From: Planobispora longispora
Lineage (GTDB): Bacteria; Actinomycetota; Actinomycetes; Streptosporangiales; Streptosporangiaceae
Direction: 5' to 3'
Length of the DNA stretch: 64,000 bases
Assembly: GCF_016863135.1 (NCBI RefSeq)
Contig: NZ_BOOH01000016.1
Location: 186,001-250,000, forward strand
Under the pieces are notes generated by a model. It saw only the letters and a program-made list of their open reading frames with translations. It did no database searches and was not told the DNA's origin. A program made the translations under genes and the position numbers. Shown in pieces: positions 1 to 64,000 of the stretch (the stretch's first letter is position 1; each line of letters begins with the position of its first letter).

Positions 1-192
1 CAGCGACGGACGAGGGTGGTGCGCGGCAATCCGACCGCCGAGGACCTTGAGGCGCTGGAGGCGGCGATCGCGATCCTCATCGCGCGCGGCCCGGCCGCTC
101 CGGCGGCGCCGGACACCGGCCGGCCGCGCCTGCTCCGGCGGCCCCCGGCGGTCTCCCGCACTCCCTGGCGAATGAGCACCTGGTCCGGCTAG
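1..192 (+). CDS. Acyl-CoA carboxylase epsilon-like subunit, C-terminal part (5' truncated)
   Basis: The reading frame enters from the left edge in frame 1 and stops at the TAG at 190-192, giving about 63 residues. It contains VVRGNPTAEDLEALEAAIA, the conserved core of the small epsilon subunits (AccE/PccE type) that bind actinobacterial acyl-CoA carboxylase beta subunits. It is followed by a Pro/Arg-rich linker and a short Trp-containing tail. Known role of the family: stimulating the biotin-dependent carboxylase that makes malonyl- or methylmalonyl-CoA. In front of an iterative polyketide synthase operon this suggests a dedicated malonyl-CoA supply, with the beta subunit expected just upstream outside the window (inference). 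The start is not visible. The tail after the core is less typical, so family assignment rests on the core motif. Confidence 0.72.
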   Translation, partial: QRRTRVVRGNPTAEDLEALEAAIAILIARGPAAPAAPDTGRPRLLRRPPAVSRTPWRMSTWSG

Positions 193-230
193 GCGCCGAG
201 GGCGCCCGCCCCACGCGAAGGAGACGAGAC

Positions 231-1184
231 GTGGCTGTCACACAATCGCCGGTCGGCACGACCGCACCGGTCGAGGCAGGCGCGTTCCCGCGCCGGCGCG
301 GTCTGCTCATCCTGGTCAGCAGCCTGGTGGGCTTCCTGCTGACCGTCGTCTGGTCGGCGGAGTTCGTCGACCAGGTCATCGGTGACACCGTGGCCGACTC
401 GCTGCTCGGTCACGACGCCAAGGAGACGCCCATCGCGGGCACGGCCGCCGGCGTCGTGTTCGCCTTCGTCACCGGGCTGGCCGGTTCCTTCACGGCGTGC
501 AACATCGCCGCCTTCGGCGCGATGGCCCCCATGCTGGGCGGGGTCGGCAGCCGCTGGGGCCGCCTCGCCCAGGCCCTCAAACCACTGGGCCGGCTCTCGG
601 CGGGCATGGTCACCGTCTCGGCCGTCTACGGGGCGATCGTGGGTGTGGCGGGGACGGGGATGGCGCAGTTCTCCACCGCCCAGAACGTGCCCGGCGCTCT
701 CTCGGCGCGCAGCATCCAGTCGATGGTCGTCTTCGGTCTGATCGGGCTGGCCATGTTCTACCTGGGGCTGGCGGCGCTCGGCGTGGTGCCCGACCCGCTC
801 GCCCGGCTGACCCGCCGCTTCCCCGGCACGCCGCACGTGGTGATGGGAGCACTGATCGGCGGCTTCCTGATCGGACGGCCCTTCCCGCTGTTCAGGCAGC
901 TCTTCCGGGACGCGGCCGAGAGCGGCGACCCCCTGTACGGCGCGTTCGCCTTCGTGCTGCAGTCCGTCGGGAACATCGTCATCATGGCGGTTCTCTTCCT
1001 GCTGCTGACGTCCGTGGCCGGCAACCGGGTGCACCGGTGGCTCACGAGCAAGCCGGGCCGGCTCGCGGCGGTCACGGGCGCCTCGCTGATCATCGTGGGG
1101 GTGTTCACCTTCCTCTACTGGGACGTGCGGCTGCTCGCGAGGCGGGAGATCATCCCGTGGTACCCGATCGCCCCCTGGAGCTGA
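231..1184 (+). CDS. Polytopic membrane protein, CcdA/DsbD-like
   Basis: This is a 317-residue integral membrane protein. The GTG start at 231 follows AAGGAG. Hydrophobic segments lie at about residues 24-45, 70-95, 125-145, 165-190, 205-222, 240-262 and 280-300. The segment around TGLAGSFTACNIAAFG has the small-residue/Cys pattern of CcdA/DsbD cytochrome-biogenesis thiol-disulfide transporters, but I see only one clear Cys, so redox function is uncertain. It lies between the carboxylase-like remnant and the first DUF1702 gene on the same strand, 86 bp before the latter, so it probably belongs to the cassette transcript. A role beside UnbU in membrane electron transfer is possible but is inference. 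It could also be an unrelated transporter. Confidence 0.6.
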   Translation: MAVTQSPVGTTAPVEAGAFPRRRGLLILVSSLVGFLLTVVWSAEFVDQVIGDTVADSLLGHDAKETPIAGTAAGVVFAFVTGLAGSFTACNIAAFGAMAPMLGGVGSRWGRLAQALKPLGRLSAGMVTVSAVYGAIVGVAGTGMAQFSTAQNVPGALSARSIQSMVVFGLIGLAMFYLGLAALGVVPDPLARLTRRFPGTPHVVMGALIGGFLIGRPFPLFRQLFRDAAESGDPLYGAFAFVLQSVGNIVIMAVLFLLLTSVAGNRVHRWLTSKPGRLAAVTGASLIIVGVFTFLYWDVRLLARREIIPWYPIAPWS

Positions 1185-1270
1185 CGTCCGCACACGATGA
1201 GGTGCGCCCCCCGGCGCATCCGATCGATCATTGACTCGTCCCCGATATCCAGCTGACGTGAGGAGATCCG

Positions 1271-2254
1271 GTGTCGACATTTCTCGGATCGGTCCGCAGG
1301 CTAATTCTCGCGCCCTCGCTCGCCGATGTGGGTTTCGCCGGCCGACGATTCCCCGTGACGCCCTCCGCCGTCACGGAACGGCTGGAGAAGATTCCGCAGG
1401 CGGTGGTGTGCGGATTCGAATGGGGAATAGACGCGAAGGACCAGTGGGAGGTCGAGCGCCGCCTCGACATGGTGGACATCGAATTGCGGGGCTTCGCCTA
1501 CGAGGGCGCGACCATGGCCTTCACCGTGCGGGACGCCATGGGCGGCGGCACCCGCACGCGCGACCTGCTGCTCGGGCCGGGGCAGCCGCACATCTTCCTG
1601 GCCTACATCGGCATCGGCTTCGCGATGGCCCGGCTGCCCCGGCCGCTGTGGAAGAAGGTCGTGCCCGATCTCGCCGGATCCGCGTACTACCCGACGATGA
1701 GCTGGCTGGCGGTCGACGGGTACGGCTTCGACCTCGCCTACTTCCACACGGACACCTGGGTCGGCCGGCAGCGGGTCCCCAGGCCCTACGCCTGGCAGGG
1801 CTCGCCCGACTACTTCCCGCACGCGGTGGACCAGGGCATCGGCCGGGCCCTGTGGTTCATCAACGGCGGGCAGGTGGCCGACGTCGCGTCGGCGGTCCGG
1901 AACTTCGCCGCCCACCGCCACGCCGACCTGTGGAGCGGGGTGGGGCTGGCCGCCACGTTCGCCGGCGGCGTCGACCGCGCCGCCCTGGAGACGCTGCGCC
2001 GGGAGGCCGGGGAGTACGCCCCGGAGCTGGCCCAGGGGTCGGTCTTCGCGGTCAAGGCGCGCGACCACGCCGGGTTCGTGCCCGAGCACGCCGCCGCGGC
2101 GGCGGCCGTCCTCACCGACCTGTCCGTCGCGGACGCGGCGGCGCTCGCCGACGACTTCACCGCCGATCCGCACGGCGCGGCCCCCGTTCCGCAATACGAA
2201 TTGTGGCGCCGGCGGGTGCGCGGCCACTTCTCCGCGGAACACGCGCTCATCTGA
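1271..2254 (+). CDS. DUF1702 family enediyne protein (UnbL-like), copy 1
   Basis: The protein is 327 residues and has no signal peptide. The GTG start at 1271 is preceded by GAGGAGAT at good spacing. It belongs to the DUF1702/UnbL family, whose members sit beside enediyne polyketide synthases; the biochemical role is not settled. Shared landmarks with the next gene are RGFAYEGA (around residue 76), YIGIGFAMARLP, VDGYGFDLAYF, DQGIGRALWFINGG, ADLWSGVGLAATFAGG and ELAQGSVFAVKAR. These block-by-block matches show that the two genes are tandem paralogues. The family is restricted to enediyne loci and a few others, so it is good evidence for the cluster type. Whether this copy corresponds to E2 or E3 of reference clusters cannot be decided without alignment. 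Confidence 0.88.
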   Translation: MSTFLGSVRRLILAPSLADVGFAGRRFPVTPSAVTERLEKIPQAVVCGFEWGIDAKDQWEVERRLDMVDIELRGFAYEGATMAFTVRDAMGGGTRTRDLLLGPGQPHIFLAYIGIGFAMARLPRPLWKKVVPDLAGSAYYPTMSWLAVDGYGFDLAYFHTDTWVGRQRVPRPYAWQGSPDYFPHAVDQGIGRALWFINGGQVADVASAVRNFAAHRHADLWSGVGLAATFAGGVDRAALETLRREAGEYAPELAQGSVFAVKARDHAGFVPEHAAAAAAVLTDLSVADAAALADDFTADPHGAAPVPQYELWRRRVRGHFSAEHALI

Positions 2255-2289
2255 TCTGCCGCCCGAAAAAGGAATCCGAACCGTCACGA

Positions 2290-2318: not shown

Positions 2319-2387
2319 TTCGGCGCGCCGGAAATCGTTCCTACCGGAATGCGCACGCCGGAAGTGGGCTCTCTCGCAACCCCTATG

Positions 2388-2399: not shown

Positions 2400-2432
2400 G
2401 TGATAATTCCTGCAAGGGGAGTGGAGACGCAA

Positions 2433-3416
2433 TTGACTGGCGCTCTACGGTCATTGAGACGACGCATTCTGACGCCGAGCATTTCTGAAACGAAGATGGA
2501 AACGCGCGGCTTCCACGTCAAAAACCATGAGGCCAAGGATCTGCTCGAGACGGTCGGTGAGACCTTCCTCGCCGGCTACGCCTATGCGGTCGAGGCCCGT
2601 ACCCCCGTGGAGGCGGAGGAACGCCTGGAGCAGGTGCCCAGGAGATTCCGCGGCTTCGCCTACGAGGGCGCCGGGATGGGATTCGGAGTCCTGGACGGGT
2701 TGCCGTTCGGCGGCTCGCGCAACGTGGAGACCTTCCTGCGGGGGCGCGGCGACGACCACCTCTACATGGTGTACGTCGGAATCGGCTGGGCGATGGCCCG
2801 GCTGCCCCGGTTCAGGTGGCCGAGCAGCGAGGCTCTCGACCCGCTGCTGATGTGGCTCGTCCACGACGGATACGGATTCCACCAGGCGTATTTCCGCACC
2901 CGGGAGTACGTCCACCGGCACCACCGGGAGCCGCGGTTCCCCTGGCCGGCGCACGACCCGCACTCGTACGCCGACCGGGCCATCGACCAGGGCATCGGCC
3001 GGGCGCTGTGGTTCATCGGCGGGACCGACGTCGACCAGGCCGTCTCCCTGCTCGAGAAGTTCCCCGAGCCGCGGTGGGCCGACCTGTGGAGCGGTATCGG
3101 GCTGGCCGCCACCTACGCGGGCGGGGCGCCCGAGGAGGAACTGGTGAGACTGCGCGAGCGGGCCGGCCGGTACCGCCCGCAGCTGGCGCAGGGGAGCGTC
3201 TTCGCAGCCGAGGCCCGGATCAGGGCGGACCTGCTGGTGCCGCACAACGAGGTGGCCACCCGGGTCCTGTGCGGCATCACCCCCGAGCGCGCGGCCCAGA
3301 TCAGCCGCGAGACCCGTCCCGACACGGCGGCGGCGCAGGGCGGACTGCCGGCCTATGAGGTGTGGCGGCAGAACATCGCCGATCAATTCGTATCTCTTGG
3401 AGGTGTCACCTCGTGA
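2433..3416 (+). CDS. unbL: DUF1702 family enediyne protein (UnbL), copy 2
   Basis: I place the start at TTG 2433 because GGAG lies six bases upstream and this gives 327 residues, exactly the length of the upstream paralogue. The N-terminal LTGALRSLRR then aligns with its FLGSVRRLIL. Longer upstream readings lack family similarity. Conserved blocks include RGFAYEGAGMGFGV, YVGIGWAMARLPR, VHDGYGFHQAYF, DQGIGRALWFIGG, ADLWSGIGLAATYAGG and LAQGSVFAAEAR. The gene immediately precedes unbV with a GTGA overlap (start 3413, stop 3416), which is the canonical unbL-unbV-unbU-pksE order, so this copy is the better candidate for the conserved E3/UnbL. Known only as part of the five-gene enediyne core; the molecular function remains unassigned. 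Confidence 0.88.
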   Translation: MTGALRSLRRRILTPSISETKMETRGFHVKNHEAKDLLETVGETFLAGYAYAVEARTPVEAEERLEQVPRRFRGFAYEGAGMGFGVLDGLPFGGSRNVETFLRGRGDDHLYMVYVGIGWAMARLPRFRWPSSEALDPLLMWLVHDGYGFHQAYFRTREYVHRHHREPRFPWPAHDPHSYADRAIDQGIGRALWFIGGTDVDQAVSLLEKFPEPRWADLWSGIGLAATYAGGAPEEELVRLRERAGRYRPQLAQGSVFAAEARIRADLLVPHNEVATRVLCGITPERAAQISRETRPDTAAAQGGLPAYEVWRQNIADQFVSLGGVTS

Positions 3417-5341
3417 CCACGACAGTTGGCTGGCTGCGCCGGCAGCTGCCGGGAATCGTCGCGCTCGGGCTGATGGCCACGTTCTTCGTGGTCTCCCAGC
3501 CGAGCTTCGCGTCCGACGGAGAGCGGGAGGAGCTCGCGCAGCGGTACAAGTTCACGCCGCTGAGCGTGGCCCTTCCCGGCGGTTACCAGCAGCAGACGAT
3601 CCGCAAGGTGAACAAGACGTACGAGAAGATCAGCGCGTGGATCTCCTCGGTCGGGGCCGCGGTCGCCATGAACGACCTCGACGCGGACGGGCTGGACAAC
3701 GACCTGTGCGTCGTGGACACACGCATCGACCAGACGGTGATCACACCGGCTCCCGGCGTGCGCGCCGACCGCTACGCGCCGTTCGCGCTCACCCCCGGCT
3801 CCCTGCCGATGGACGAGACCATGGCCCCCATGGGCTGCGTCCCCGCCGACCTCAACGAGGACGGCCGGATGGACGTCCTCGTCTACCTGTGGGGCCGCTC
3901 GCCGATCGTGTACCTGCAGAAGGCCGACGCCAAGGGGCTGAGCGCGGCCGCCTTCCAGGCCGTCGAGCTGGTGCCGAACTCGGGCGGGAGCAAGTACGAC
4001 GGCCCGGTCTGGAACAGCAACGTCGCCTCCGTCGCCGACTTCGACGGAGACGGGCACCAGGACGTCTTCGTCGGCAACTACTTCAAGGACGACTCCCGGG
4101 TCCTGGACGCCACGGTCGAGGGCGGCGTGGAGATGAACGACTCCATGTCCGCCGGCTTCAACGGCGGCCGGAACTACTTCTTCCGGTGGACGGGCGCGAC
4201 CGCGGACTCGGTGAGCTTCCAGAAGCTGGACGACGTCCTGTCCGAGGAGGTCTCCAGGGGCTGGGAGCTCGGCGCGACCGCGGTCGACCTCGACCGCGAC
4301 CAGCTCCCCGAGCTGTTCCTGAACAACGACTTCGGCCCCGACCGGCTGCTGTACAACACCTCCACCCCCGGAAAGATCCAGTTCAAGCTGGTGGAGAAGA
4401 GCCGGGACGCCTGGACCCCCAAGTCCAAGTCCCTCGGGAAGGACTCGTTCAAGGGCATGGGCTCCGACGCGGCCGACCTCGACCACGACGGCCTCTACGA
4501 CTTCTTCGTCAGCAACATCACCACCCCCTACGGCATCCAGGAGAGCAACTTCCACCTGATCTCCACCGCCAAGGACCACGCCGACCTGCGCAACCAGCTC
4601 AGCAGCGGGCACGCGCCGTTCGTCGACCGCAGTGCCGAGCTGCGCACGGCCTGGTCCGGCTGGGGCTGGGACGTCAAGATCAACGACTTCGACAACAGCG
4701 GCGAGCCCGCCATCGTGCAGGCGACGGGCTTCGTCAAGGGCTGGGTCAACCGCTGGGCCCAGCTGCAGGAGCTGGCCACCGCCAACGACATCGTCGTCCA
4801 CGACGTCAAGTCGTGGCCGGTCGTCCAGGAGGGCGTGGACATCGCCGGCGATCAGACGCTGGCCTTCTTCGCCAAGCAGGCGGACGGCACCTACGCCAAC
4901 CTGTCCAAGGAGCTCGGCCTGGCCGTGCCGATCCCCACGCGCGGCATCGCCACCGGTGACGCCGACGGCGACGGCCGGCTCGACTTCGCCGTCGCCAGGC
5001 AGTTCGGCCCGCCGGTGTTCTACCAGAACGTGAGCCCGGACGCCGGGGCCTTCCTCGGACTGCGGCTGCGCGAGGAGACCACGGGCGCCCCGGTGATCGG
5101 CGCCGAGGTGACCGTGACCGCCCAGGACGGGCGGACGTTCGTCAACCGGGTGGACGGCGGCAGCGGCCACTCCGGCAAGCGCGCCCACTCCGTGCACATC
5201 GGCCTCGGCAAGGACGTCTCGGGCCCGCAGAAGGTGCACCTGAAGTGGCGTGACCGCACGGGTCAGGTGCGCGAGCAAGATCTTCAGCTCACTCCCGGCT
5301 GGCACACGATCCAGCTCGGCTCGCAGGCGAAGGAGAAGTGA
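3413..5341 (+). CDS. unbV: UnbV, exported FG-GAP/ASPIC-UnbV protein
   Basis: The protein is 642 residues. The GTG start at 3413 overlaps the previous stop and follows TTGGAGGT. An N-terminal hydrophobic stretch (about residues 14-32, ending near SFASDG) looks like a signal peptide or anchor. The body carries at least seven Ca-binding-like FG-GAP motifs of DxDxDGxxD type (DLDADGLDND, DLNEDGRMD, DFDGDGHQD, DLDRDQLPE, DLDHDGLYD, DFDNSGEPA, DADGDGRLD), predicting a beta-propeller outside the membrane. The C-terminal 90 residues match the ASPIC/UnbV domain. UnbV is one of the invariant genes of enediyne cassettes, with unknown chemistry. Coupling to unbU and pksE shows that all are made together. 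An exported propeller next to a membrane RnfD-like partner suggests action at the cell surface (inference). Confidence 0.93.
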   Translation: MTTTVGWLRRQLPGIVALGLMATFFVVSQPSFASDGEREELAQRYKFTPLSVALPGGYQQQTIRKVNKTYEKISAWISSVGAAVAMNDLDADGLDNDLCVVDTRIDQTVITPAPGVRADRYAPFALTPGSLPMDETMAPMGCVPADLNEDGRMDVLVYLWGRSPIVYLQKADAKGLSAAAFQAVELVPNSGGSKYDGPVWNSNVASVADFDGDGHQDVFVGNYFKDDSRVLDATVEGGVEMNDSMSAGFNGGRNYFFRWTGATADSVSFQKLDDVLSEEVSRGWELGATAVDLDRDQLPELFLNNDFGPDRLLYNTSTPGKIQFKLVEKSRDAWTPKSKSLGKDSFKGMGSDAADLDHDGLYDFFVSNITTPYGIQESNFHLISTAKDHADLRNQLSSGHAPFVDRSAELRTAWSGWGWDVKINDFDNSGEPAIVQATGFVKGWVNRWAQLQELATANDIVVHDVKSWPVVQEGVDIAGDQTLAFFAKQADGTYANLSKELGLAVPIPTRGIATGDADGDGRLDFAVARQFGPPVFYQNVSPDAGAFLGLRLREETTGAPVIGAEVTVTAQDGRTFVNRVDGGSGHSGKRAHSVHIGLGKDVSGPQKVHLKWRDRTGQVREQDLQLTPGWHTIQLGSQAKEK

Positions 5342-5343
5342 CG

Positions 5344-6360
5344 ATGGCCGAGCAGACCCCGACCCCGCCGACCCCGCCGACCCCGCCGGCCCCGCCGGCC
5401 GCGAAGGCCCCGCCGCGGCACGACGCCAAGACCATCACGGCCCTGCGCCGGTTCGCGCTCTCGATCACGATCTTCAACATCCTCGGCTACTCGTGGTGGG
5501 GGTTCGAGCAGGGGTTCGCCTGGCCCTTCGTGGCACTGGCCACCGGCTACACCGTCGAGATCGTCCTGGAGATCATCGGGGCGCGGACCGAGGGACGCGC
5601 GCCGCGGTTCCGCGGCAACGGGTTCAGGGGGCTGGTGGACTTCCTGCTCCCGGCGCACATCACCAGCGTCGCGCTGAACATGCTGACCTACGTCAACGAC
5701 CAGATCCTGGTGATGATGTTCGGGGTCACCGTGGCGGTGGGGGCCAAGTGGGTGCTGAGGGCGCCGGTGCGCGGACGCCTGCGGCACTTCATGAACCCCT
5801 CCAACTTCGGCATCGCCGTGATCCTGATCCTGTTCCCCTGGGCCAGCATCGCCCCGCCGTACCACTTCAGCGAGCACGTCGGGAACCCGGTCGACTGGAT
5901 CATCCCGCTGGTCATCATCTTCTTCGGCACCATGCTCAACGCCAAGCTGACCAACCGCATGTGGCTGATCGGCGCCTGGGTCGGCGGCTTCGTCGTCCAG
6001 GCCGTCGTCCGCGGACTGATCATCGATGACATCTCGATCCTCGGCGGCCTGTCGATGATGACCGGCATCGCCTTCGTCCTGTTCACCAACTACATGATCA
6101 CCGACCCCGGGACCAGCCCCTCCAAGCCGCTCTCGCAGATCGCCTTCGGCGGCGGCGTGGCCGTGATGTACGGCGTGCTCACCGGCATGAACATCCCCTA
6201 CGGGATCTTCTTCGCCACCGCCGCCGTCTGCCTGATCCGCGGCGGCTACCTGTGGGCGCTGGACATCTCCCTCAAGACCCGCGCCAAGGAGGCCGAGCAG
6301 GTCCAGAAGCAGGCCGCCCAGGCGCTGGCCGGGGTCCAGGGAGAGGCGGCCAAGGCATGA
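5344..6360 (+). CDS. unbU: UnbU, RnfD-like integral membrane protein
   Basis: The protein is 338 residues, starting at ATG 5344, seven bases after AAGGAGA. A GTG at 5338 overlapping the unbV stop is a weaker alternative. The N-terminus is a low-complexity tract of Thr-Pro-Pro and Ala-Pro-Pro steps from nine-base DNA repeats (5359-5400), followed by about eight to ten membrane segments and a charged Ala/Lys/Gln-rich C-terminal helix. UnbU proteins resemble RnfD/NqrB, flavin-bearing subunits of ion-pumping electron-transfer complexes. The DPGTSPSKP stretch is of the kind in which that family carries its covalent-FMN Thr. It overlaps the PKS start by ATGA. It is part of the invariant five-gene cassette. 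A role in electron or product transfer across the membrane is inferred from the family only. Confidence 0.92.
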   Translation: MAEQTPTPPTPPTPPAPPAAKAPPRHDAKTITALRRFALSITIFNILGYSWWGFEQGFAWPFVALATGYTVEIVLEIIGARTEGRAPRFRGNGFRGLVDFLLPAHITSVALNMLTYVNDQILVMMFGVTVAVGAKWVLRAPVRGRLRHFMNPSNFGIAVILILFPWASIAPPYHFSEHVGNPVDWIIPLVIIFFGTMLNAKLTNRMWLIGAWVGGFVVQAVVRGLIIDDISILGGLSMMTGIAFVLFTNYMITDPGTSPSKPLSQIAFGGGVAVMYGVLTGMNIPYGIFFATAAVCLIRGGYLWALDISLKTRAKEAEQVQKQAAQALAGVQGEAAKA

Positions 6361-9300
6361 CCAGAGTCGCCATCGTGGGCATGGCGTGCCTCTACCCGGA
6401 CGCGACCTCGCCCAGAGAGCTGTGGGAGAACGCCGTCGCGGGACGGCGGGCCTTCCGCCGCCTGCCCGACGTCCGCATGCGGCTGGAGGACTACTGGGAC
6501 GCCGACCCGGCCACCCCGGACCGCTTCTACGCGCGCAACGCCGCGGTCATCGAGGGGTACGAGTTCGACCGGCTCTCCCACAAGATCGCCGGCAGCACCT
6601 ACCGCTCGACCGACCTCACGCACTGGCTGGCCCTCGACGTCGCGGGCCGGGCGCTGACCGACGCCGGGTTCCCCCAGGCGGACGGGCTTCCGCGCGAGCG
6701 CACCGCGGCCATCGTGGGCAACACGCTGACCGGGGAGTTCACCCGGGCCAACGTGCTCCGCCTGCGCTGGCCGTACGTGCGCAGGACCGTCGCCGCCGCG
6801 CTCAAGGCGGAGGGCTGGGACGACGACCGGCTGGCCACGTTCCTGGCCGACCTGGAGGCCACCTACAAGAGCCCGTTCCCGTCCATCGACGAGGACACCC
6901 TGGCCGGGGGCCTGTCGAACACGATCGCCGGGCGCATCTGCAACCACTTCGACCTCAACGGCGGCGGCTACACGGTCGACGGCGCCTGCTCCTCCTCCCT
7001 GCTCGCGGTGGCCACGGCCGCCAAGGGCCTGGTGGACGGCGACATCGACGTGGCGCTCGCCGGCGGGGTCGACCTGTCGATCGACCCGTTCGAGATCATC
7101 GGCTTCGCGAAGACCGGCGCCCTGGCCAAGGGCGAGTTCAAGCTCTACGACCGCGGTTCCAACGGCTTCTGGCCCGGCGAGGGCTGCGGCATGGTCGTGC
7201 TGATGCGCGAGGAGGACGCCGTCAGGTCCGGGCGGCGGATCTACGCCACCGTCGCCAGCTGGGGCATCTCCTCCGACGGCAAGGGCGGGATGACCCGGCC
7301 GGAGATCAGCGGCTACCAGCTGGCCATGCGCCGGGCCTACGAGAAGGCGGGCTTCGGCGTCGAGACGGTCCACCTGTTCGAGGGGCACGGCACCGGCACC
7401 GCCCTGGGCGACGCCACCGAGCTCAAGGCGCTCTCGGGCGCCCGGGCGACGGCGGATCCGACCGCCGCGCCCGCCGCGGTCACCTCGATCAAGGGGATGA
7501 TCGGGCACACCAAGGCGGCGGCCGGGGTGGCCGGCCTGATCAAGGCCGCGATGGCAGTCCACGAGCAGGTGCTCCCGCCCACCGTCGGCTGCGTCGACCC
7601 GCACCCGGTGCTGGCGGAGGAGGGGGCCTCGCTGCGCGTGCTGCGCAAGGCCGAGCCCTGGCCCTCCGGCGCGCCGGTCCGGGCCGCGGTCACCGCCATG
7701 GGCTTCGGCGGGATCAACACCCACGTGGTGCTGGAGAACCCCAACCCGCGCCGGCGGGCCCAGTTCAGCACCCGCACCAAGGCGCTGGCCGCCTCCCTGC
7801 AGGACGCCGAGGTCCTGCTGATGGACGGGGCCTCGCCGGACGCCCTGCGCGAGCGGGTGCGGGAGCTGGCGGACTTCGTGCCGCAGGTCTCCTACGCCCA
7901 GCTCGCCGACCTGGGCGCCGCGCTCCAGCGGGAGCTGCGGGGCCTGCCGTACCGGGCGGCCGTCGTGGTCACCTCGCCGGAGGACGCCGAGAAGCAGCTG
8001 CGGACCGTGCTGGACGCGCTCGAGGCGGGGGAGACCCGCCTGGTGCGGGCCGACGGGCGCGCCTTCCTCGGCCACGCCGACCGGGAGGGGAAGATCGGCT
8101 TCCTCTTCCCCGGCCAGGGATCCGGCCGGGGCACCAGCGGCGGTGCCCTGCGCAGGCGGTTCGCCGAGGTGGAGGAGATCTACCTGAAGGCGGACCTCCC
8201 CGTCAGCGGCGACATGGTGTCCACCGCCGTCGCCCAGCCGCGCATCGTCACCGGATCGATGGCCGGTCTGCGGGCGCTGGACCTCCTGGGCGTCGAGGCC
8301 GAGGTCGCTCTGGGCCACAGCCTGGGCGAGCTGTCGGCGCTGCACTGGGCCGAGGCGATGGACGAGGAGACCCTGCTGCGCGTGGCCGGCGTGCGGGGCC
8401 GGGCGATGACCGAGCACAGCGAGCCCGGCACCATGGCGGGACTCAGCGCGGCCCCCGGCCCGGTGCTGAGGCTGATCGGCGAGCTGCCCGTCGTGATCGC
8501 CGGTTACAACGGGCCCGAGCAGACCGTGATCGCGGGCCCGGTCGACGCGATCGAGGCGGCGGGCGCGCGGGCCGCCGAGGCCGGGATCCGTTTCACGCGG
8601 CTGTCGGTGTCGCACGCCTTCCACTCGCCCCTGGTGGCGCCGGCGACCAAGGTCCTCGGCGAGCACCTGGAGACCGAGAGCTTCGACCGGATCTCCCGGA
8701 ACGTCGTCTCCACCGTCACCGGGGAGACGCTGGCCCCGGACACCGACATCCCCGCGCTGCTCCGGCGCCAGATCACCGATCCGGTGCTGTTCACCCAGGC
8801 CGTGGAGCGCGCGGCCGCGCAGGTCGACCTGTTCGTCGAGGTCGGTCCCGGGTCCGTGCTCGGCCGCCTGGCCGCGGGGGTGAGCGACGTGCCCGCCGTG
8901 TCCCTGGACACGGACTCGGAGTCGATCGCCGCGCTCCTGCGCGTGGTGGCCGCGGCGTACGTGGCCGGGGTCCCCGTGGCCCACGAGGAGCTGTTCCACG
9001 GCCGGCTCATCCGCCCGCTGGAGATCGGCGCCGAGTTCCGGTTCTTCGCCAGCCCGGCCGAGCAGGCCCCGCAGGTCCAGGTCCACGGCGAGGTCGTCCG
9101 TACGGCGCAGCCGCAGGCCGCGCCCGAGGGGACCGAGGCCGTCGAGGCCGGGGAGTCCACCGTGGACCTGCTGCGCCGCCTGGCCGCCCAGCGGGCGGAG
9201 CTGCCGCTGGAGATGGTGCACGAGGACAGCAGGCCCCTGGACGAGCTGCACCTGAGCTCGGTCACCGTGATGCACATCATCGACCAGGCCGCCCAGATCC

Positions 9301-49617: not shown

Positions 49618-49783
49618 GCCGATGGTTTCCATGCTTTGAATTAGCCGCCGAATCGGACGGGTCCGCATCTCTCCGGTTGCTGGATGATACGCACGCACAG
49701 AGATGCCGGGAAAAAGCATGCGGGTGAGGATGGGGAACTGCCGCGATTCGCCCTGCTCTTTTTATCGCGAGAGGACCCATGAC

Positions 49784-56860: not shown

Positions 56861-58433
56861 ACGCACAGTCGATCTTGACGGGGAGAACCTCGACATCACC
56901 GGGGTCAAGCGGGTCGCCGAGGATTGGGCTCCCTGCGCCGTGTCCGCGTCGGCGCTCGCCAAGGCCGCCGCCAGCAGGACGCTCTTCGAGGACCACGTCA
57001 GCGAGGGCATCCCCGTCTACGGCGTGACCACCGGTTACGGCGAAATGATCTACATGCTCGTGGACACCTCGAAGGAGGTGGAGCTGCAGACCAACCTCGT
57101 GCGCAGCCACGCCGCGGGCGTGGGGCCGCTGTTCGCCGAGGACGAGGCCCGGGCGATCCTCGTCGCCCGGTTGAACGCGCTGGCCAGAGGCTACTCCGCG
57201 GTCCGCCCCGAGCTGCTGGAGCGCCTGGAGCTCTACATCAACAAGGGGGTCACGCCCGCCATCCCCCAGATCGGATCCCTCGGCGCCAGCGGCGACCTGG
57301 CTCCGCTGGCGCACCTCGCCGTCACGCTGATCGGCGAGGGCTACGTGCTGCGGGAGGGCAAGCGGACCCCGACCGGCCAGGTGCTGCGCGAGCTGGGCAT
57401 CGAGCCGCTGGAGCTGCGCTTCAAGGAGGGCCTGTCGCTGATCAACGGCACCTCGGCCATGACCGGCCTGGGCTCCCTGGTGGTCAACCGCGCCCTGGAC
57501 CAGGTACGGCAGGCCGAAGCGGTCACCGCGCTGGTCGTGGAGACCATGCGCGGCTCCACCAGCCCGTTCCTGGCCGAAGGGCACGACCTGGCCCGGCCGC
57601 ACCGGGGGCAGATGGACACCGCCGCCAACATGCGGGCCCTGCTCCACGGCAGCCGCCTGGCCGTCGAGCACGCCGATCTGCGCAAGGAGGCCCAGGCCCA
57701 GAAGGAGGGCAGCAGGGTCTCCCGTACCCGCGTCTACCTGCAGAAGGCCTACACGCTGCGGGCCATCCCCCAGGTGGTGGGCGCCGTCAGGGACGTGCTC
57801 TACCACGCGCGGCAGACGCTGGAGACGGAGCTGAACTCCTCCAACGACAACCCGCTGTTCTTCGAGGGCAAGGAGATCTTCCACGGCGCCAACTTCCACG
57901 GCCAGCCGATCGCCTTCGCCATGGACTACGTGACGATCGCGCTCACCCAGCTCGGAGTGTTCTCGGAGCGGCGCACCAACCGCCTGCTCAACCGGCATCT
58001 CAGCGGTCTGACGGAGTTCCTCGTCGCCGGTGAGCCCGGACTCAACAGCGGCTTCGCCGGCGCGCAGTACCCGGCGACGGCCCTGGTGGCCGAGAACCGC
58101 ACCATCGGCCCGGCCAGCACCCAGAGCGTCCCGTCCAACGGAGACAACCAGGACGTGGTCAGCATGGGCCTGATCTCGGCGCGCAACGCCCGCCGCGTGC
58201 TGGAGAACAACTACAAGATCCTCGCCGTCGAGTTCCTGTGCGCGGCGCAGGCGGTCGACCTGTCCGCGCGGTACGACCGGCTCAGCCCCGCGGGCAAGGA
58301 CACCTACGACAGGGTGCGCGCGATCGTCCCCTGGGTCCCGCACGACCGGTACATGTCGGACGACATCGAGGCGATCGCGGACGCGCTGGCCCGCGGCGAG
58401 TTCCTCCGCGTCGGCGGGATCGAGGTGCGTTGA
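56841..58433 (+). CDS. MIO-dependent tyrosine 2,3-aminomutase (SgcC4 type)
   Basis: The protein is 530 residues, with a GTG start inside the 3' end of the A-domain gene. The MIO-forming triad Ala149-Ser150-Gly151 lies in GSLGASGDLAPLAH. The catalytic Tyr60 is in VYGVTTGYGE. Other ammonia-lyase family blocks: NGTSAMTG, NSSNDNPLF, NFHGQPIAFAMDY, and QSVPSNGDNQDVVSMG. The family includes histidine and phenylalanine/tyrosine ammonia-lyases and aminomutases; linkage to a single A domain, PCP and C domain, as in sgcC1-sgcC5, indicates aminomutase rather than lyase. Product would be (S)- or (R)-beta-tyrosine; stereochemistry cannot be told from sequence here. It overlaps the next start by ATG. Confidence 0.95.
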   Translation: MTLLATERTVDLDGENLDITGVKRVAEDWAPCAVSASALAKAAASRTLFEDHVSEGIPVYGVTTGYGEMIYMLVDTSKEVELQTNLVRSHAAGVGPLFAEDEARAILVARLNALARGYSAVRPELLERLELYINKGVTPAIPQIGSLGASGDLAPLAHLAVTLIGEGYVLREGKRTPTGQVLRELGIEPLELRFKEGLSLINGTSAMTGLGSLVVNRALDQVRQAEAVTALVVETMRGSTSPFLAEGHDLARPHRGQMDTAANMRALLHGSRLAVEHADLRKEAQAQKEGSRVSRTRVYLQKAYTLRAIPQVVGAVRDVLYHARQTLETELNSSNDNPLFFEGKEIFHGANFHGQPIAFAMDYVTIALTQLGVFSERRTNRLLNRHLSGLTEFLVAGEPGLNSGFAGAQYPATALVAENRTIGPASTQSVPSNGDNQDVVSMGLISARNARRVLENNYKILAVEFLCAAQAVDLSARYDRLSPAGKDTYDRVRAIVPWVPHDRYMSDDIEAIADALARGEFLRVGGIEVR

Positions 58434-59785
58434 TGACATCGCCCGCGCCCGTGGTCGAACGGGCTCCGCTCTCCTTCAACCAGCAGTTCCTGCGCGTTTT
58501 CGACAAGGGCGACGGCGAGGGGCCCTTCGGTCCCAAGTACAACATCGTGTGCGGCTGGCGGATCAGGGGGCCCATCGCGGTCGGCCCCCTGCACGACGCC
58601 CTGACGGACGTGGTGACGCGCCACGAGGCGCTGCGCTCCCGGATCGTCCTCGACGGGGAGGACGGCCACCAGGAGATCTTCCCGCCGAGCCGGCCCTCCC
58701 TGGTGGTCAAGGACCTGTCCGGGGCCGAGCCGGACCGGCGCGGCCCGGCGGCCGAGGAGCTCCTCATCGAGGTCGAGTCCGGCGCCTACGGCCTGGAGGA
58801 TCTGCCGCTGCTGCGGGCCTTCCTGGGCCAGTTCGACAGCGATGACGCGATTCTCGTCCTGGTCGCCCACCACACGGCGGCCGACGAGTGGTCCATGCGA
58901 CTGATCATGCGAGACCTCGCCGTCCGCTATGCGATCCGGACCGGCGAGCTGGTGCCCGACCTTCCGCCGGTCCGCCAGTACCGGGAGTTCACCCGGTGGC
59001 AGCAGTCGTCCGACGCCGACGGCAGGTCGCAGCGGTACTGGCGGGAGAAGCTCGACGGCGCGCGGATCTTCGCCACCCCCACCGACCACCCCAGGTCGGC
59101 GAATCTGCCCAAGGAGACCGCGTGGTACCGGTTCTCCGTCGAGAAGGAGGTCACCGACCGGCTCACCGAGGTCGCCAGAACGACCAAGAGCTCGCCGTTC
59201 ATGGTCCTGCTCGCGGCGTACAGCGTGGTGCTCCAGCGGTCCAGCGGGCTCACCGACATCGTCGTGCCGACCTTCACCTCGGGCCGCGCGCACGGCGGTT
59301 TCCACGACACGGTGGGCTCCTTCTTCAACTTCGTCCCCCTGCGGATGGACCTCTCCGGATGCGAGAGCTTCCGCCAGGCGGTGACGCGGGTCAGGAGCAC
59401 CTGCCTGGAGGCGTACACCCGGGACATCCCCTTCGCGAAGATCCTGGAGGAGGCGCCGGAGCTGATGAGCCCGGCCGCCGCGGACGACCGCGCGGTCCTC
59501 GCCTTCCAGGTCTTCCGATCCCCGCTGGGGTCCGACCGCCACACGGTCGGCGGGCTGGAGTACGCCGAGTTCAGGGAGCGGCGGCTGCCCCAGGCCAGCG
59601 GCGGCGACGTGCCCGACGGGGCCATGTGGCACCTGGAGTTGCTCCCCGCCGGCGGGATCAACGGGACCTTGGCCTACAACACCAACCTTTTCCTCGAGAG
59701 CACCATCGCCGAGATGGCTGCGGACTTCCGGCAGGTACTGCGGAGCGCGGTAGTGGCCCTGGACGCCCCGCTCGCTCGTTTCTGA
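58433..59785 (+). CDS. Free-standing NRPS condensation enzyme (SgcC5 type)
   Basis: The protein is 450 residues, starting ATG 58433 one base after the previous stop codon's T. The condensation-domain motif appears as LVAHHTAADEWS: His146-His147 and Asp151 are kept, but the usual Gly after Asp is Glu152. Other marks are LSFNQQFLRVFDKG, VVTRHEALRSRI, IVVPTFTSGRAHG and GSFFNFVPLRMDL. SgcC5 forms an ester between PCP-bound beta-tyrosine and an alcohol of the enediyne core; the same role is likely here. The Asp-Glu rather than Asp-Gly may alter substrate choice (inference). It is coupled upstream and followed by the PCP after 28 bases. Confidence 0.92.
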   Translation: MTSPAPVVERAPLSFNQQFLRVFDKGDGEGPFGPKYNIVCGWRIRGPIAVGPLHDALTDVVTRHEALRSRIVLDGEDGHQEIFPPSRPSLVVKDLSGAEPDRRGPAAEELLIEVESGAYGLEDLPLLRAFLGQFDSDDAILVLVAHHTAADEWSMRLIMRDLAVRYAIRTGELVPDLPPVRQYREFTRWQQSSDADGRSQRYWREKLDGARIFATPTDHPRSANLPKETAWYRFSVEKEVTDRLTEVARTTKSSPFMVLLAAYSVVLQRSSGLTDIVVPTFTSGRAHGGFHDTVGSFFNFVPLRMDLSGCESFRQAVTRVRSTCLEAYTRDIPFAKILEEAPELMSPAAADDRAVLAFQVFRSPLGSDRHTVGGLEYAEFRERRLPQASGGDVPDGAMWHLELLPAGGINGTLAYNTNLFLESTIAEMAADFRQVLRSAVVALDAPLARF

Positions 59786-59813: not shown

Positions 59814-60086
59814 GTGAGCATCGGTTTCCCAGAGAACCTGGGCTTCCCCGTCGTCCAGAAGAAGGTGGAGGAGATCTGGACCGAGGTGCTGGAGGTCACG
59901 GAGGGTCAGGAAGACGCCAGCTTCTTCGAACTCGGCGGCGAGTCGGTGGCCGCGGCCAGGATCGTCGCCCGGGTGGAGGACGAGCTGGGCGTCTGGATCG
60001 AGGTGGGTGACATCTTCGAGGAGGACCCCACCATGACGGAGTTCATCCGCACCGTGGCGGCGCGCGCCGACGCGGCGCAGTCGTGA
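59814..60086 (+). CDS. Peptidyl carrier protein, free-standing (SgcC2 type)
   Basis: The protein is 90 residues, GTG after a double AGGAG...GGAGG site. The phosphopantetheine Ser44 is in FFELGGESVAAARIV, a standard PCP motif. The acidic small size suits a discrete carrier that holds beta-tyrosine while tailoring enzymes act and the C enzyme condenses it. It lies between the C-domain and PhyH genes in one operon. PPTase activity could come from the synthase's C-terminal domain or from elsewhere in the genome. Confidence 0.95.
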   Translation: MSIGFPENLGFPVVQKKVEEIWTEVLEVTEGQEDASFFELGGESVAAARIVARVEDELGVWIEVGDIFEEDPTMTEFIRTVAARADAAQS

Positions 60087-60097: not shown

Positions 60098-60943
60098 ATG
60101 ACCGGCACACCGCGGGTGAGACCCGACGCCGACCTGGACGAGGTCGTCGCCATCCTGGAACGCGACGGCGCCGTGATCGTCGAGGACCTGGTCGACGACG
60201 AGACGCTCGCGCGGCTGTGGGACGACCTCGGTCCCGCGCTCGACGCGCGCGACTTCAGCGGCGACTGGTACAACGGCACGCGGACCCGGCGGGTCTCGTC
60301 GCTGTTCGCCAGGACGGCCCAGCTGACCCCGGTGGTGACGCACCCGCTCTACCTGGGCGCGGCCCGCCGGATCATGCAGAAGCCGACCCACATCTGGATG
60401 GGCAAGGTCCGGGTGGAGATGGTGCCGAGCATCCAGATCAGCGGCACCCAGGTGATCCAGATCCATCCGGGCCAGGGCAAGCAGCCGCTCCACCGGGACG
60501 ACGCGCTGCACCTGCGCCCCCATCCCGGGCCGACGAGCCGGGTGCAGCTGATGCTGGCCATGAGCGAGTTCACCGCGGAGAACGGCGGGACCATGGTGAT
60601 CCCCGGGAGTCACCACTGGGACGACGAGCGCGCACCCGGTGCGGACGAGGCCTTCCCGACGGAGATGTCCGCCGGATCCGGCCTCATCTGGCTCGGCGGG
60701 GTCTACCACGGCGGGGGGCGCAACCTGGCCGACACCCCGCGCACGGGGCTCACCATCGCGCTGGACCTGGGAAATCTGCGCCAGGAGGAGAACCAGTACC
60801 TCGCCGTCCCCCGGGAGGCGGTGCTGGCCTATCCAGAGGAGGTCCGGCGGTTGCTGGGGTACGACCGCTGCCCGCCGGGCCTGGGCTGGTACGAGATGGA
60901 GGACCCCTATTCGCTCCTGGAGCAGGCCGAAGCCGCACGCTGA
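60098..60943 (+). CDS. Phytanoyl-CoA dioxygenase-like Fe(II)/2-oxoglutarate enzyme
   Basis: The protein is 281 residues from ATG 60098 (GAGAGG upstream); GTG 60083, overlapping the PCP stop, is also possible. The facial triad is visible as His-x-Asp in KQPLHRDDALHLRP and a distal His in GGVYHGGGRNLADTPR, followed by the Arg in TPRTGLT that binds 2-oxoglutarate. NGGTMVIPGSHHWDDERAP is the typical PhyH stretch. Such enzymes hydroxylate, chlorinate (if Asp becomes Ala/Gly, not the case here) or desaturate. Coupling to the PCP suggests action on the carrier-bound beta-tyrosine or on the core. It is the last gene before two large hairpins. Confidence 0.92.
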   Translation: MTGTPRVRPDADLDEVVAILERDGAVIVEDLVDDETLARLWDDLGPALDARDFSGDWYNGTRTRRVSSLFARTAQLTPVVTHPLYLGAARRIMQKPTHIWMGKVRVEMVPSIQISGTQVIQIHPGQGKQPLHRDDALHLRPHPGPTSRVQLMLAMSEFTAENGGTMVIPGSHHWDDERAPGADEAFPTEMSAGSGLIWLGGVYHGGGRNLADTPRTGLTIALDLGNLRQEENQYLAVPREAVLAYPEEVRRLLGYDRCPPGLGWYEMEDPYSLLEQAEAAR

Positions 60944-60946
60944 AGG

Positions 60947-61079: not shown

Positions 61080-61085
61080 CGGATC

Positions 61086-62630
61086 TCAGAAGAAGTTCTT
61101 GAGCCCTTCGAAGGACTCCAGATCCGGGACCGTCCACCCGTCCATGTCGTATTCGCTGAGACACTCCTCCACGAACGCGGTGTAGCCGTCCATCTGCCCG
61201 TTGGCGAGCTGGGAGAGCAGCAGCTCGACGCGGGTGTTCTCGTGGTTGCCCGCGTAGTTGCGCTCGTAGAGCTCGTGCCGGCCGCCGAACTCGGTGCCCA
61301 CGGCGTCCCACAGCAGCTTCATGAGCTTGACCCGGTCCACCGCCTCGACGCCGTTCGAGCCCCGGCAGAACCTGTCCAGGTAGGGGCGGATCTCGGGGTT
61401 CTTGAAGTCCTTGACGCTGGAGTTCACGAAGATCAGGCCGCTCGCGACGTCCTGCAGGATGATCTCCCTGATCCTCGGGTAGCCGAGCTGCAGGAACCAC
61501 CGGTAGGCGAGGCCGTACTGGGGGTTCGGCAGCATGGCGCCGTTCTTCCACGGCACCGGGTTCCGCGCCGCGGCGTCGGACAGGGCCCAGAAGAGGTTCC
61601 GCCAGGCGAGCACCTCGCCGACGCGGGTCTGCACCCCCCGGAAGTCCTTGGTGCCGGTGATCTCAAGGGCTTTGTAGAGGAGGCCGGCGAGGAACTCCAG
61701 CTTCACCGCCAGGCGCGTGCAGCCGTGGAAGGTGAAGCGCTCGGGGAACCCGGACTGCCCGGTGAAGAGCATGGCCTTGCCCAGGTGCCCGTAGACGAAC
61801 ACGTTCTCCCAGGGGATGAGCACCTTGTCGAACACCAGGATCGTGTCGTTCTCGTCCAGGCGTGAGGAGAGCGGATAGTCGAAGGGACTGCCCATGACCG
61901 CGGACATGGCGGTGTAGGACGGCCGGCAGATCAGCTTCACGCCGGGGGCGTCCATCGGGGCCGTGGCCACCAGGGCGAATTTCCGGTCCTTGATGGGCAG
62001 TCCGTAGTGGGCGATGAAGTTGTAATGGGTGAGCGCCGACCCGGTCGCGACCACTTTCGCGCCGCTCACGACCAGTCCGGCGTCCGTCTCCTTCTCCACA
62101 TGGATGAAGACGTCCTCGACCTGGTCCGGGGGAAGGCTCCGGTCGACCGGAGGATGCACGATGGCGTGATTCCAGTAGAGGACCTTCTCCTGCGATTCGC
62201 GGTACCAGCGCCGGGCGTTGTCCGAGAACGGCTCGTAGAACTCCGCGTTCGCTCCCAGCGTGCCGAGGAAGGACGCCTTGTAGTCCGGGCTCCGCCCCAT
62301 CCAGCCGTAGCTCATCCGCGCCCACGCCGCGATGGCCTGCTGGTCGGCGACGAGGTCCTCCGGAGTGCGGGGTGTGGTGAAGAACCGGTGGGTGTATCCG
62401 TCGCTGCCCGTGTCGGTCGCCGTGGTGAGGACGTCCCGGTGGGCCGGGTCGTGCAGCGCGTCGTACAGCCTCGCGACCATGCGGGCCGGATTGGCGAATG
62501 CCGGGTGCGAGGTCACGTCCTTGACCCGGTCACCGTAGAGGTAGATCTGGCGATCGTCCCGGAGGCTCTCGATGTATTCCGCTCCGGTCAGGGGCCGCGT
62601 CTTCGGCTGCCCTCCCTGGTCTGCGGTCAT
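61086..62630 (-). CDS. HpaB-type phenol 3-hydroxylase (SgcC type)
   Basis: The protein is 514 residues from ATG 62630, with GAGGAG upstream; ATG 62642 would add four residues. It matches 4-hydroxyphenylacetate 3-monooxygenase large components: [24 protein letters not shown], the FAD region [21 protein letters not shown] and [36 protein letters not shown]2 must be provided by a partner reductase (E6-type gene). SgcC of C-1027 hydroxylates PCP-bound beta-tyrosine at C3; the same is likely here and gives a catechol. The gene is leftward and alone, divergent from the next monooxygenase. Confidence 0.94.
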
Positions 62631-62836
62631 TGCACTCCTCATGAATCGTCGGTGGCCGACCGGCTTATTCAGGTTGTCAGCCTTTTTTATTGCGCGCTTC
62701 TCCGAACATGCGGAGTGTCCGTGAAACGCCTGGTGGGCGGCTGTTCGCAATTCAGGAGATGCAGCGTCTCCGACCGGCTGGGATTCTCGGGTTCTGGGGT
62801 TCGTCAATTCACATTCAGCTCTTCCGGAGGGCCGAT
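62631..62836. promoter_or_regulatory. Divergent region, HpaB-type / monooxygenase
   Basis: These 206 bp contain a T-rich stretch (TTTTTTATTG near 62684) and GGAGG before 62837. It should hold promoters in both directions. No motif was assigned. Confidence 0.45.
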
Positions 62837-64000
62837 GCTGACAACTGAGAGTCAAACTCGTGAAGAGGTCGTTGCGCGTGTGACCGAGCTCGTGCCCGCG
62901 ATCCGGAAGCACACGGCCTGGACGGAGGAGAACCGCCGCCTGCACGAGGAGACCGTCGAGGCGCTGGCCGGGGCCGGCGTGTTCAAGCTCCGGGTGCCGC
63001 GGCGCTACGGCGGCTACGAAGCCGACACCCGCACCCTGGTCGACGTGGCCGCCGAACTGGGCCGGGCCGACGGCTCGGTGGCGTGGACGGCCTCGGTGTA
63101 CTGGATCCCGACCTACATGGCCTGCCTGTTCCCCGACGAGGTGCAGGACGAGGTGTTCTCCACCCCCGACGTCCGGATCTGCGGGACGCTCAGCCCGGGC
63201 GCGATGGCCACCCCGGTCGACGGCGGGGTCGTCGTCAACGGCAAGTGGAGCTTCATCAGCGGCGCGTGGCACAGCCACTGGCAGGAGGTCATCGCGGTCC
63301 TGATGACGCCGGACGCCGAGCCGATGCCGATCATGGCTCTGGTGCCGATGTCGGACCTGCGGATCGTGGACGACTGGCACACCGCGGGTCTGAGGGGCAC
63401 GGGCAGCGTCACCACGATCGCCGAGAACGTGTTCATCCCCAGCGCCCGGATCCTGCCGCTGCCGGCCGTACTCCAGGGGGAGGGCGCCTCGGCGCTGAAC
63501 GCCGGATCCCCGATCTACCGGGCTCCGCTGCTGCCGGTCGCGTCCGCCTCCTCGGTCGGCACCGTGCTCGGGCTGGCGAACGCCGCCAAGGAGACGTTCT
63601 TCGAGAGGCTCCCGGACCGGAAGATCACCTACACCCACTACGACAGCCAGGCCGCGGCCCCCATCACCCACCTGCAGGTCGCGGACGCCGTCATGAAGAT
63701 CGACGAGGCCGCCTTCCACGCCCACCGCCTCACGGACCTCGTCGACGGCAAGGGCGCGGAGCCCTGGACCCTGGAGGAGCGGGTCAGGGCGCGGGCCGAG
63801 CTCGGCGCCGTGTGCAGGCTGGGGAAGGAGGCCGTGGACATCCTGGCCTCGGCCAGCGGCGGGTCGTCGATCTACTCCGACGTGCCGATCCAGCGGATCG
63901 CCCGCGACATCGGCGCCGTGAACATGCACGCGCTCATGAACCCGAACACCAACGCCGAGCTGTACGGCCGCGTCCTGTGCGGTCAGGAGCCCGGCACCCT
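62837..64000 (+). CDS. Acyl-CoA-dehydrogenase-fold flavin monooxygenase, copy 2 (3' truncated)
   Basis: The frame opens at ATG 62837 after CCGGAGGG and stays open to the window end, giving 388 codons with no stop. [34 protein letters not shown] is followed by [36 protein letters not shown] and [22 protein letters not shown], the C-terminal motif of HsaA/DszC-like hydroxylases. It resembles the 47.4-kb enzyme in block order but with many differences. A FADH2-dependent hydroxylase on aryl or core is likely. The true end, probably only a few residues to tens of residues beyond, lies outside. Confidence 0.9.

Follow-up and report, generated by a model that had tools for sequence, protein, structure and literature searches.

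What does the enediyne locus of the soil actinomycete Planobispora longispora encode, and does it form one biosynthetic gene cluster? The DNA analyzed here (the window) comprises 64,000 nucleotides, bases 186001-250000 of the 327,417-base contig C16, in a genome of 8.84 Mb that is assembled in 120 contigs with a completeness of 99.96%. Genes were called with a codon-usage script, which predicted 105 genes in 144 kb, of which 48 (g27 to g74) lie in or touch the window; all 48 were compared with Pfam (the last gene minus its final codons) and 30 of the 48 with NCBIfam. Where applicable, genes are labelled by the usual enediyne names (E2 to E10, unb, Sgc; Table 1). By these gene and family assignments, the locus is a single, real nine-membered enediyne cluster whose product structure is a prediction, and it probably belongs to a class that combines a nine-membered core, a beta-tyrosine unit and a branched 2-deoxy aminopentose. 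A sequence-only reading of the same DNA had placed a core, a beta-tyrosine unit and a pentose sugar in one run, and all three are found unbroken on the contig. The same reading took positions 1 to 64000 to be the cluster; its singleness stands, but its boundaries do not, because the outermost genes with homologues in other enediyne loci, which were used to set the limits, extend it from about -10.2 kb (a molybdopterin oxidoreductase) to about +71.4 kb (a carboxyltransferase). The window occupies the central part of a cluster of about 82 kb, in which the flanking genes with such homologues are the molybdopterin oxidoreductase and regulators upstream, and a phosphopantetheinyl transferase, a hydrolase and the carboxyltransferase downstream.

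The core genes (1355-19740) are two DUF1702 genes, unbV, unbU, pksE, a thioesterase, E6-, E7- and E9-like genes, and small core-associated proteins, which agrees with the earlier listing of pksE, tebC, unbL, unbV, unbU and E6-E9-like genes. The DUF1702 family presumably corresponds to E2/E3. The enediyne polyketide synthase (PKS) cassette is defined as E3/E4/E5/E/E10 in PMC5181780, and it is complete and in that order in the window (g28/g29, g30, g31, g32 and g33); the same text gives the presence of E2 besides E3 as the rule for the nine-membered subclass, and both are accounted for by g28 and g29. The homologue of g31, which has no family match, is present in 12 of 12 enediyne loci compared (55-82% identity) and adjoins pksE in 11 of them. 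The PksE protein is 63% identical to that of the C-1027 locus, which together with the two DUF1702 genes argues for the nine-membered type. Relatives of PksE were taken as the best 80 of 233 in a contig search of genomes, and some of these genomes also have a distant PksE type, perhaps the ten-membered one, with 43-44% identity to g32. For membership in a clade, PMC5181780 sets the line at 90% or higher identity to the PksE of a recognized clade member; over its full length the window PksE reaches no more than 76-77% to any found, and its best 333-residue stretch reaches 87.4% among the 81 compared, although the fragment used in that paper may differ. PksE and the accessory enzymes would build the warhead.

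A beta-tyrosine set of the C-1027 type is found at 55337-62630: an aminomutase (g69), an adenylation enzyme (g68), a carrier protein (g71), a condensation enzyme (g70) and an HpaB-type hydroxylase (g73), so that the earlier claim of a complete sgcC1/C2/C4/C5/C-like set holds. In the predicted pathway, g69 would convert L-tyrosine to beta-tyrosine, which g68 would activate and g71 would carry; g73 would hydroxylate the ring, g72 perhaps a side-chain carbon, and g70 would couple the unit to the core. Halogenases of the PhyH kind are known to lack the acidic residue, and a halogenase function of g72 was rejected on the presence of its HRD triplet. In P. siamensis NBRC 107568 (G002), P. takensis NBRC 109077 (G003, contig C30), G008 (C81) and G010 (C45), the aminomutase matches in two pieces inside one open frame, which suggests an insertion of approximately 20 residues near position 285.

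The pentose genes lie at 37449-47099. The homologies of g54, g56, g58, g59 and g60, combined with the general logic of deoxysugar pathways, point to a 4-amino-2,4-dideoxy-3-C-methyl pentose, and this sugar, with the full route as ordered here, is somewhat favored. To our knowledge, no enediyne carries it. A sugar nucleotide would be oxidized by g55, decarboxylated by g56 and 2,3-dehydrated by g54. Then g59 would reduce C3, g60 add a methyl group to the same carbon and g58 install the amino group at C4 by transamination, after which g61 would attach the finished pentose; the reaction order, sugar positions, nucleotide, attachment sites and final structure are inferred. The sequence-only reading had called this a UDP-pentose locus: the pentose genes are there, but the carrier may be either uridine diphosphate (UDP) or thymidine diphosphate (TDP), the latter being given by PMC10951976 for the maduropeptin pentose. 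Actinomadura alba HBUM206468 and Streptomyces jumonjinensis NRRL 5741 share the dehydratase, C-methyltransferase and glycosyltransferase with the window at 68-80% identity, but a homologue of g59 could not be found in the stretches fetched from them. The DegT aminotransferases of these two clusters share 87% identity with one another and approximately 30% (28-30%) with g58. Compared with solved structures, the A. alba aminotransferase is nearest to 7b0d, QdtB and 2oga. The last of these is presumably DesV, and DesV and QdtB are 3-aminotransferases. A DesV/QdtB-like aminotransferase without a g59-type ketoreductase suggests that the amine is at C3 in A. alba and S. jumonjinensis and at C4 in the window cluster, and the clusters can be read as variants of one sugar pathway differing in amine position.

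How far this gene set is shared was estimated by counting, for each of 13 groups, how many of the 48 genes of the window have a reciprocal best hit, a rough measure in which low-identity partners are counted and several loci are partial. The counts are 46 in G370 (a single-contig genome of the same family), 45 in S. jumonjinensis, 40 in A. alba, 36 in Sphaerisporangium rufum, 32 in a Sphaerisporangium metagenome-assembled genome (MAG), 29 in CB02414, 27 in Microbispora siamensis, 26 in Streptosporangium canum, 25 in the C-1027 locus of Streptomyces globisporus, 24 in KJ-029, 23 each in Phytohabitans flavus and Planotetraspora, and 20 in P. siamensis (C47:100001-180000 only); those of A. alba and S. 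jumonjinensis include g58 at 28-30%, which is the other aminotransferase. The relatives' genes were called with the codon model of the window, which missed the adenylation, condensation and carrier protein genes of A. alba that tblastn finds at 48-59%. All 12 genes of block g50-g61 have reciprocal best hits in G370 (49-87%); A. alba has them for 11 of these genes and S. jumonjinensis for 10, g59 being absent from the last two. G370 has nearly the same gene set, with all the sugar genes, but differs in that its core genes occupy two loci separated by 2 Mb: pksE, the thioesterase, the beta-tyrosine genes and the sugar genes at approximately 3.27-3.33 Mb of C1, and DUF1702, unbV, unbU, E7- and E9-like genes and others at approximately 5.32-5.34 Mb. 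Each of the two loci has an E6-like gene and an AraC-type gene. In A. alba, the core, beta-tyrosine genes and sugar block form one run on one contig, whereas in S. jumonjinensis the sugar block and pksE are on different contigs. All three differ from the window by a QdtB-like aminotransferase and a second C-methyltransferase, and A. alba and G370 by an additional radical SAM/B12 gene. The free 507-residue adenylation enzyme of the window contrasts with a 1,099-residue condensation-adenylation-carrier module in G370 and a gene with condensation and adenylation parts in S. jumonjinensis (933 residues as called); the S. rufum counterpart is of similar size (1,097).

In S. rufum, the 36 shared genes are in window order except g51, and other genes replace g50-g61, apart from a g53-like acyltransferase (54%); among ten proteins scanned, the replacement region has adenylation, condensation, racemase, thioesterase and acyltransferase genes. 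The window thus resembles a common chassis in which one block has been swapped, in either direction. Frequencies were taken from 50 other genomes, 47 picked for a pksE locus (from the best 80 of 233) plus G001-G003, of which G002 and G003 coincide with two further loci among the 80; gene stretches were read for some loci, several of them incomplete. An aminomutase-like match of at least 70% occurs in 30 of the 50, four of them in two pieces. pksE, an SgcC4-like aminomutase (at least 70%) and a UXS-like gene (at least 59%) share a contig in 8 of 51 genomes, the host included (G000, G002, G003, G009, G013, G020, G031 and G049), where they may or may not belong to one cluster, their spacing reaching more than 90 kb in G009. 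The 2,3-dehydratase is matched at 79-80% only by A. alba and S. jumonjinensis among the 50, the rest having at most 55%; G370 is a third, at 78%.

Among characterized enediynes, C-1027 (sgc; S. globisporus JCM 4378 locus) shares the nine-membered core and the beta-tyrosine set, but matches g56, g58, g60 and g61 at 28-35% only. On the contig with pksE, both C-1027-type genomes (S. globisporus JCM 4378 and CB02366) encode an apoprotein, an FADH2-dependent (reduced flavin adenine dinucleotide) halogenase and an epoxide hydrolase, none of which was found in the window cluster. A neocarzinostatin-type apoprotein (PF00960, E 0.01) was found nowhere in the host assembly, A. alba or S. rufum, while 10 of 21 genomes match, including both of the C-1027 type; the matches in S. 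jumonjinensis are long frames on contigs other than that of its cluster. The 58-kb contig C88 of S. canum has partial apoprotein matches at both ends, so the assembly may have been interrupted by repeated copies of the apoprotein gene. An SgcC3-type halogenase (PF04820, E 1e-15) was likewise not detected in the host, A. alba or S. rufum, with matches in 7 of 13 genomes, including both of the C-1027 type. No epoxide hydrolase (EHN) match is on C16, the three of the host being on C45, C9 and C12; there is one on each C-1027-type contig and one on the cluster contig of the Sphaerisporangium MAG. Of 14 PF00109 matches in the genome, PksE is the single one on C16, and no chorismate- or anthranilate-synthase-type Pfam match is among the 48 window genes, so that no known aromatic acyl unit is assigned.

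Kedarcidin has in common with the window a nine-membered core and a beta-amino acid unit, but is described with TDP-deoxyhexoses and 2-aza-beta-tyrosine. Calicheamicin has an aminopentose route with a nucleoside diphosphate (NDP) pentose, 2-deoxygenation and C4 amination as in the window, but a ten-membered core and a 3-O-methyl group; its aminotransferase CalS13 is a distant match to g58 (7.3e-27). Maduropeptin (mdp, Actinomadura madurae ATCC 39144), as described in PMC10951976, has MdpC, C1, C2, C4 and C5 for a tyrosine-derived acid and makes a C-methylated 4-amino pentose by a dehydrogenase, decarboxylase, C-methyltransferase, transaminase and glycosyltransferase, all present by kind in the window (g55, g56, g60, g58 and g61); so described, it is without a 2,3-dehydratase or 3-ketoreductase and has a halogenase and a methylsalicylate PKS, whereas the 2,3-dehydratase g54 argues that the 2-hydroxyl is not kept here. 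A search of the open-licence literature for madurosamine returned no paper, which is weak evidence. The cluster is not that of C-1027 by direct comparison, nor that of maduropeptin by the review text. The claim that its mix is unlike any known thus stands against these two but not as uniqueness, given the nearly identical set of G370; judged on genes, the cluster is real and uncharacterized, as are its near relatives, and a new product is a prediction.

The remaining genes of the window include several of less certain role. The acyltransferases g43 and g53 and the methyltransferases would probably decorate the sugar or core. g46, of the solute-binding-protein family, has 21 codons back to a stop with no upstream start codon and thus no room for a leader peptide; homologues are in 13 of 29 relative stretches, with an upstream frame of 7-10 codons in S. 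canum, M. siamensis and A. alba, and a longer or cut one elsewhere, where a leader is possible. A cytoplasmic binding protein of this type may serve self-protection or as a carrier protein. The heme cysteine motif of g48, with a TIGR04515 score far under the cut-off, led to rejection of a heme-less glycosyltransferase activator, and the solved relatives of g67, Lsd18/LasC and MonCI, to rejection of a halogenase. Of 341 genomes of the family, 7 carry g52, the host included; it is within an enediyne locus in the host, A. alba and G370, and its homologues in G284, G293, G300 and G307 (63-68%) lie among non-enediyne genes in the stretches read, so that it was rejected as an enediyne-specific gene and is, by homology, a part common to several pathways. 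The homologues in G307 and G284 adjoin large genes resembling PKS or nonribosomal peptide synthetase genes. Outside the window, the molybdopterin oxidoreductase (minus strand, approximately 8-10 kb upstream) has homologues of 65-74% in six compared enediyne loci, and g83, a second small carrier protein adjoining the cluster downstream, has no clear homologue.

Table 1. Predicted genes of the 64,000-nucleotide window, with the basis of each assignment; percentages are identities.
Gene	Coordinates	Strand	Assignment	Basis
g27	231..1184	+	probable membrane protein, adjoins core	no Pfam/NCBIfam match; homologue 63-74% in A. alba, Planotetraspora, Phytohabitans loci
g28	1355..2254	+	DUF1702 (E2/E3 type, unbL-like)	PF08012 437 bits
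g29	2496..3416	+	second DUF1702 (E2/E3 type)	PF08012 429 bits
g30	3413..5341	+	unbV-like (E4)	UnbV_ASPIC, FG-GAP
g31	5344..6360	+	unbU-like (E5)	homology and place
g32	6357..12098	+	enediyne iterative PKS (PksE), 1,913 residues	Pfam: ketosynthase, acyltransferase, ketoreductase, dehydratase
g33	12102..12530	+	thioesterase (E10, tebC-like)	4HBT_2; 79-91% in relatives
g34	12540..13076	+	flavin reductase (E6-like)	Flavin_Reduct
g35	13073..14446	+	P450 (E7-like)	p450; heme Cys motif present
g36	14618..15262	-	AraC-type regulator	HTH_18
g37	15799..16227	+	DUF5987 core-associated protein	PF19449
g38	16224..17876	+	GMC oxidoreductase (E9-like)	family match; 77-84% in relatives
g39	17888..18940	+	CMD/AhpD-like core protein	Pfam, NCBIfam
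g40	18937..19740	+	TIGR03084 / mycothiol-maleylpyruvate-isomerase-like core protein	Pfam, NCBIfam
g41	20235..21011	+	prephenate dehydrogenase (putative tyrosine supply)	PDH_N, PDH_C
g42	21166..21501	+	YCII-related protein	Pfam
g43	21597..22715	-	acyltransferase (Acyl_transf_3)	Pfam
g44	23016..24053	+	DUF2855	Pfam
g45	24065..24745	+	DUF2306 membrane protein	Pfam
g46	24831..26177	-	solute-binding-protein family, leaderless	SBP_bac_8; nearest solved UgpB
g47	26474..27898	+	BBE-type FAD oxidase	Pfam
g48	27916..29157	+	P450	Pfam
g49	29154..30017	+	F420-dependent LLM-type oxidoreductase	Pfam, NCBIfam
g50	30172..31521	+	BBE-type FAD oxidase, alongside sugar block in G370, A. alba, S. jumonjinensis	Pfam
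g51	31658..33316	+	MFS transporter	Pfam
g52	33598..36045	+	AprA-type methyltransferase fused to second methyltransferase	PF23525; PDB 6b39 (AprA MT1), 7uci
g53	36246..37367	+	acyltransferase (Acyl_transf_3), adjoins g52 here, in A. alba and in G370	Pfam
g54	37449..38813	-	NDP-sugar 2,3-dehydratase	PF03559 477 bits
g55	39099..40370	+	UDP-glucose dehydrogenase family	Pfam
g56	40388..41443	+	UDP-glucuronate decarboxylase-like	Pfam; solved UDP-glucuronate decarboxylases
g57	41455..42069	+	NUDIX hydrolase	Pfam
g58	42108..43304	+	TlmJ-like sugar aminotransferase (C4 position predicted)	5uid E 1.5e-149
g59	43495..44517	-	sugar 3-ketoreductase	3rbv 'Sugar 3-ketoreductase' (presumably KijD10) E 9.3e-87
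g60	44526..45767	-	sugar 3-C-methyltransferase	4rv9 'D-mycarose 3-C-methyltransferase' E 2.4e-50; TcaB9
g61	45786..47099	-	glycosyltransferase	EryCIII-like domains; TIGR04516 426.8 bits, just below 440 cut-off
g62	47411..48661	+	acyl-CoA-dehydrogenase family, HsaA-monooxygenase-like	under HsaA cut-off
g63	48808..49632	-	methyltransferase	Pfam, NCBIfam
g64	49784..51343	+	methyltransferase with uncharacterized N-terminal part	Pfam, NCBIfam
g65	51349..52731	+	FAD-binding oxidase	Pfam
g66	52884..53636	-	short-chain dehydrogenase	Pfam
g67	53842..55257	+	flavin enzyme, epoxidase-like (Lsd18/MonCI)	8up4 E 3.9e-49
g68	55337..56860	+	stand-alone adenylation enzyme (SgcC1-like), 507 residues	Pfam, NCBIfam
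g69	56841..58433	+	tyrosine 2,3-aminomutase (SgcC4-like)	TIGR03832 917.4 bits (cut-off 501); 75-76% to C-1027 locus
g70	58433..59785	+	stand-alone condensation enzyme (SgcC5-like)	Pfam
g71	59814..60086	+	stand-alone carrier protein (SgcC2-like)	Pfam
g72	60098..60943	+	PhyH-family oxygenase, HRD triplet (hydroxylase type)	family and motif
g73	61086..62630	-	HpaB-type hydroxylase (SgcC-like)	TIGR02310 708.6 bits, under 885.2 cut-off; 77% to C-1027 locus
g74	62880..64000	+	HsaA-monooxygenase-like, ends at 64010 beyond window	under HsaA cut-off

Other interpretations of these genes have to be weighed against a single cluster for a nine-membered enediyne with a 4-amino sugar. Two adjoining clusters, or a join made by the assembly, would be conceivable from the split core of G370, which implies that such parts can move, but this is very improbable: the window and the fetched flanks contain no N and lie within one contig, and the same layout recurs as one run in A. 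alba and its chassis in S. rufum. A close variant of maduropeptin, with 4-amino-4-deoxy-3-C-methyl ribose and a chlorinated tyrosine-derived acid, would agree with the enzyme kinds of the mdp sugar route and of MdpC, C1, C2, C4 and C5 as far as these are described; it is improbable in view of the 2,3-dehydratase and 3-ketoreductase that the described route lacks, the host genome without the PF04820 match that both C-1027 producers have, and the lack of a second ketosynthase match on C16 for a dimethylsalicylate unit. It is also unlikely, if less so, that the sugar is a 3-amino pentose as predicted for A. alba and S. jumonjinensis, with g58 and g59 acting elsewhere: the close similarity of the dehydratase, C-methyltransferase and glycosyltransferase to those of clusters that carry the QdtB-like aminotransferase speaks for it, but gene calling yielded no aminotransferase of that kind in the window, where the sole DegT enzyme is TlmJ-like, and the sugar 3-ketoreductase has no match in the stretches fetched from those two genomes.

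The preferred reading, the 4-amino sugar on a nine-membered core with a beta-tyrosine unit, has several points against it. The adenylation, condensation and carrier protein genes are only 47-49% identical to those of C-1027, so that the acyl group used by g70 can be predicted with less confidence than the substrate of the aminomutase. Genes for any known aromatic acyl unit were not recognized, which weakens a substrate prediction for g43 and g53. The sugar positions depend on homology to solved relatives and on the regiochemistry ascribed to these. No nucleotidyltransferase was found among the scanned cluster genes; such a gene lies close to the block in S. jumonjinensis and in G370, and a homologue of the G370 gene occurs in A. 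alba. G370 carries the QdtB-like aminotransferase (93% to that of A. alba) and the second C-methyltransferase in addition to g58 (87%) and g59 (78%), and holding both sets tells against a simple one-for-one exchange, although the g58/g59 pair may serve another branch there. Product and expression are predicted from genes alone. Joining all parts into one hypothesis, a chlorine-free nine-membered enediyne without the usual apoprotein, with the 4-amino-2,4-dideoxy-3-C-methyl pentose, an exchangeable sugar block that switches the amine between C3 and C4, and g46 holding the chromophore, is speculative and, taken as a whole, doubtful. Under this hypothesis, the ketoreductase and 4-aminotransferase would be swapped for a 3-aminotransferase in relatives, moving the amine between C4 and C3, and the leaderless g46 would replace the apoprotein as holder of the chromophore.

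Enediynes are DNA-cutting antibiotics, and two have become drugs. Those of known structure are few: eleven had been characterized by 2016, according to PMC5181780. The gene-by-gene alignment of the P. longispora cluster with its relatives shows how the outer units of an enediyne may swap as blocks, and its enzyme pairs are testable handles for the placement of an amine at C3 versus C4 of a branched deoxypentose. The cluster also raises the question of how an enediyne without a recognizable apoprotein stays stable.

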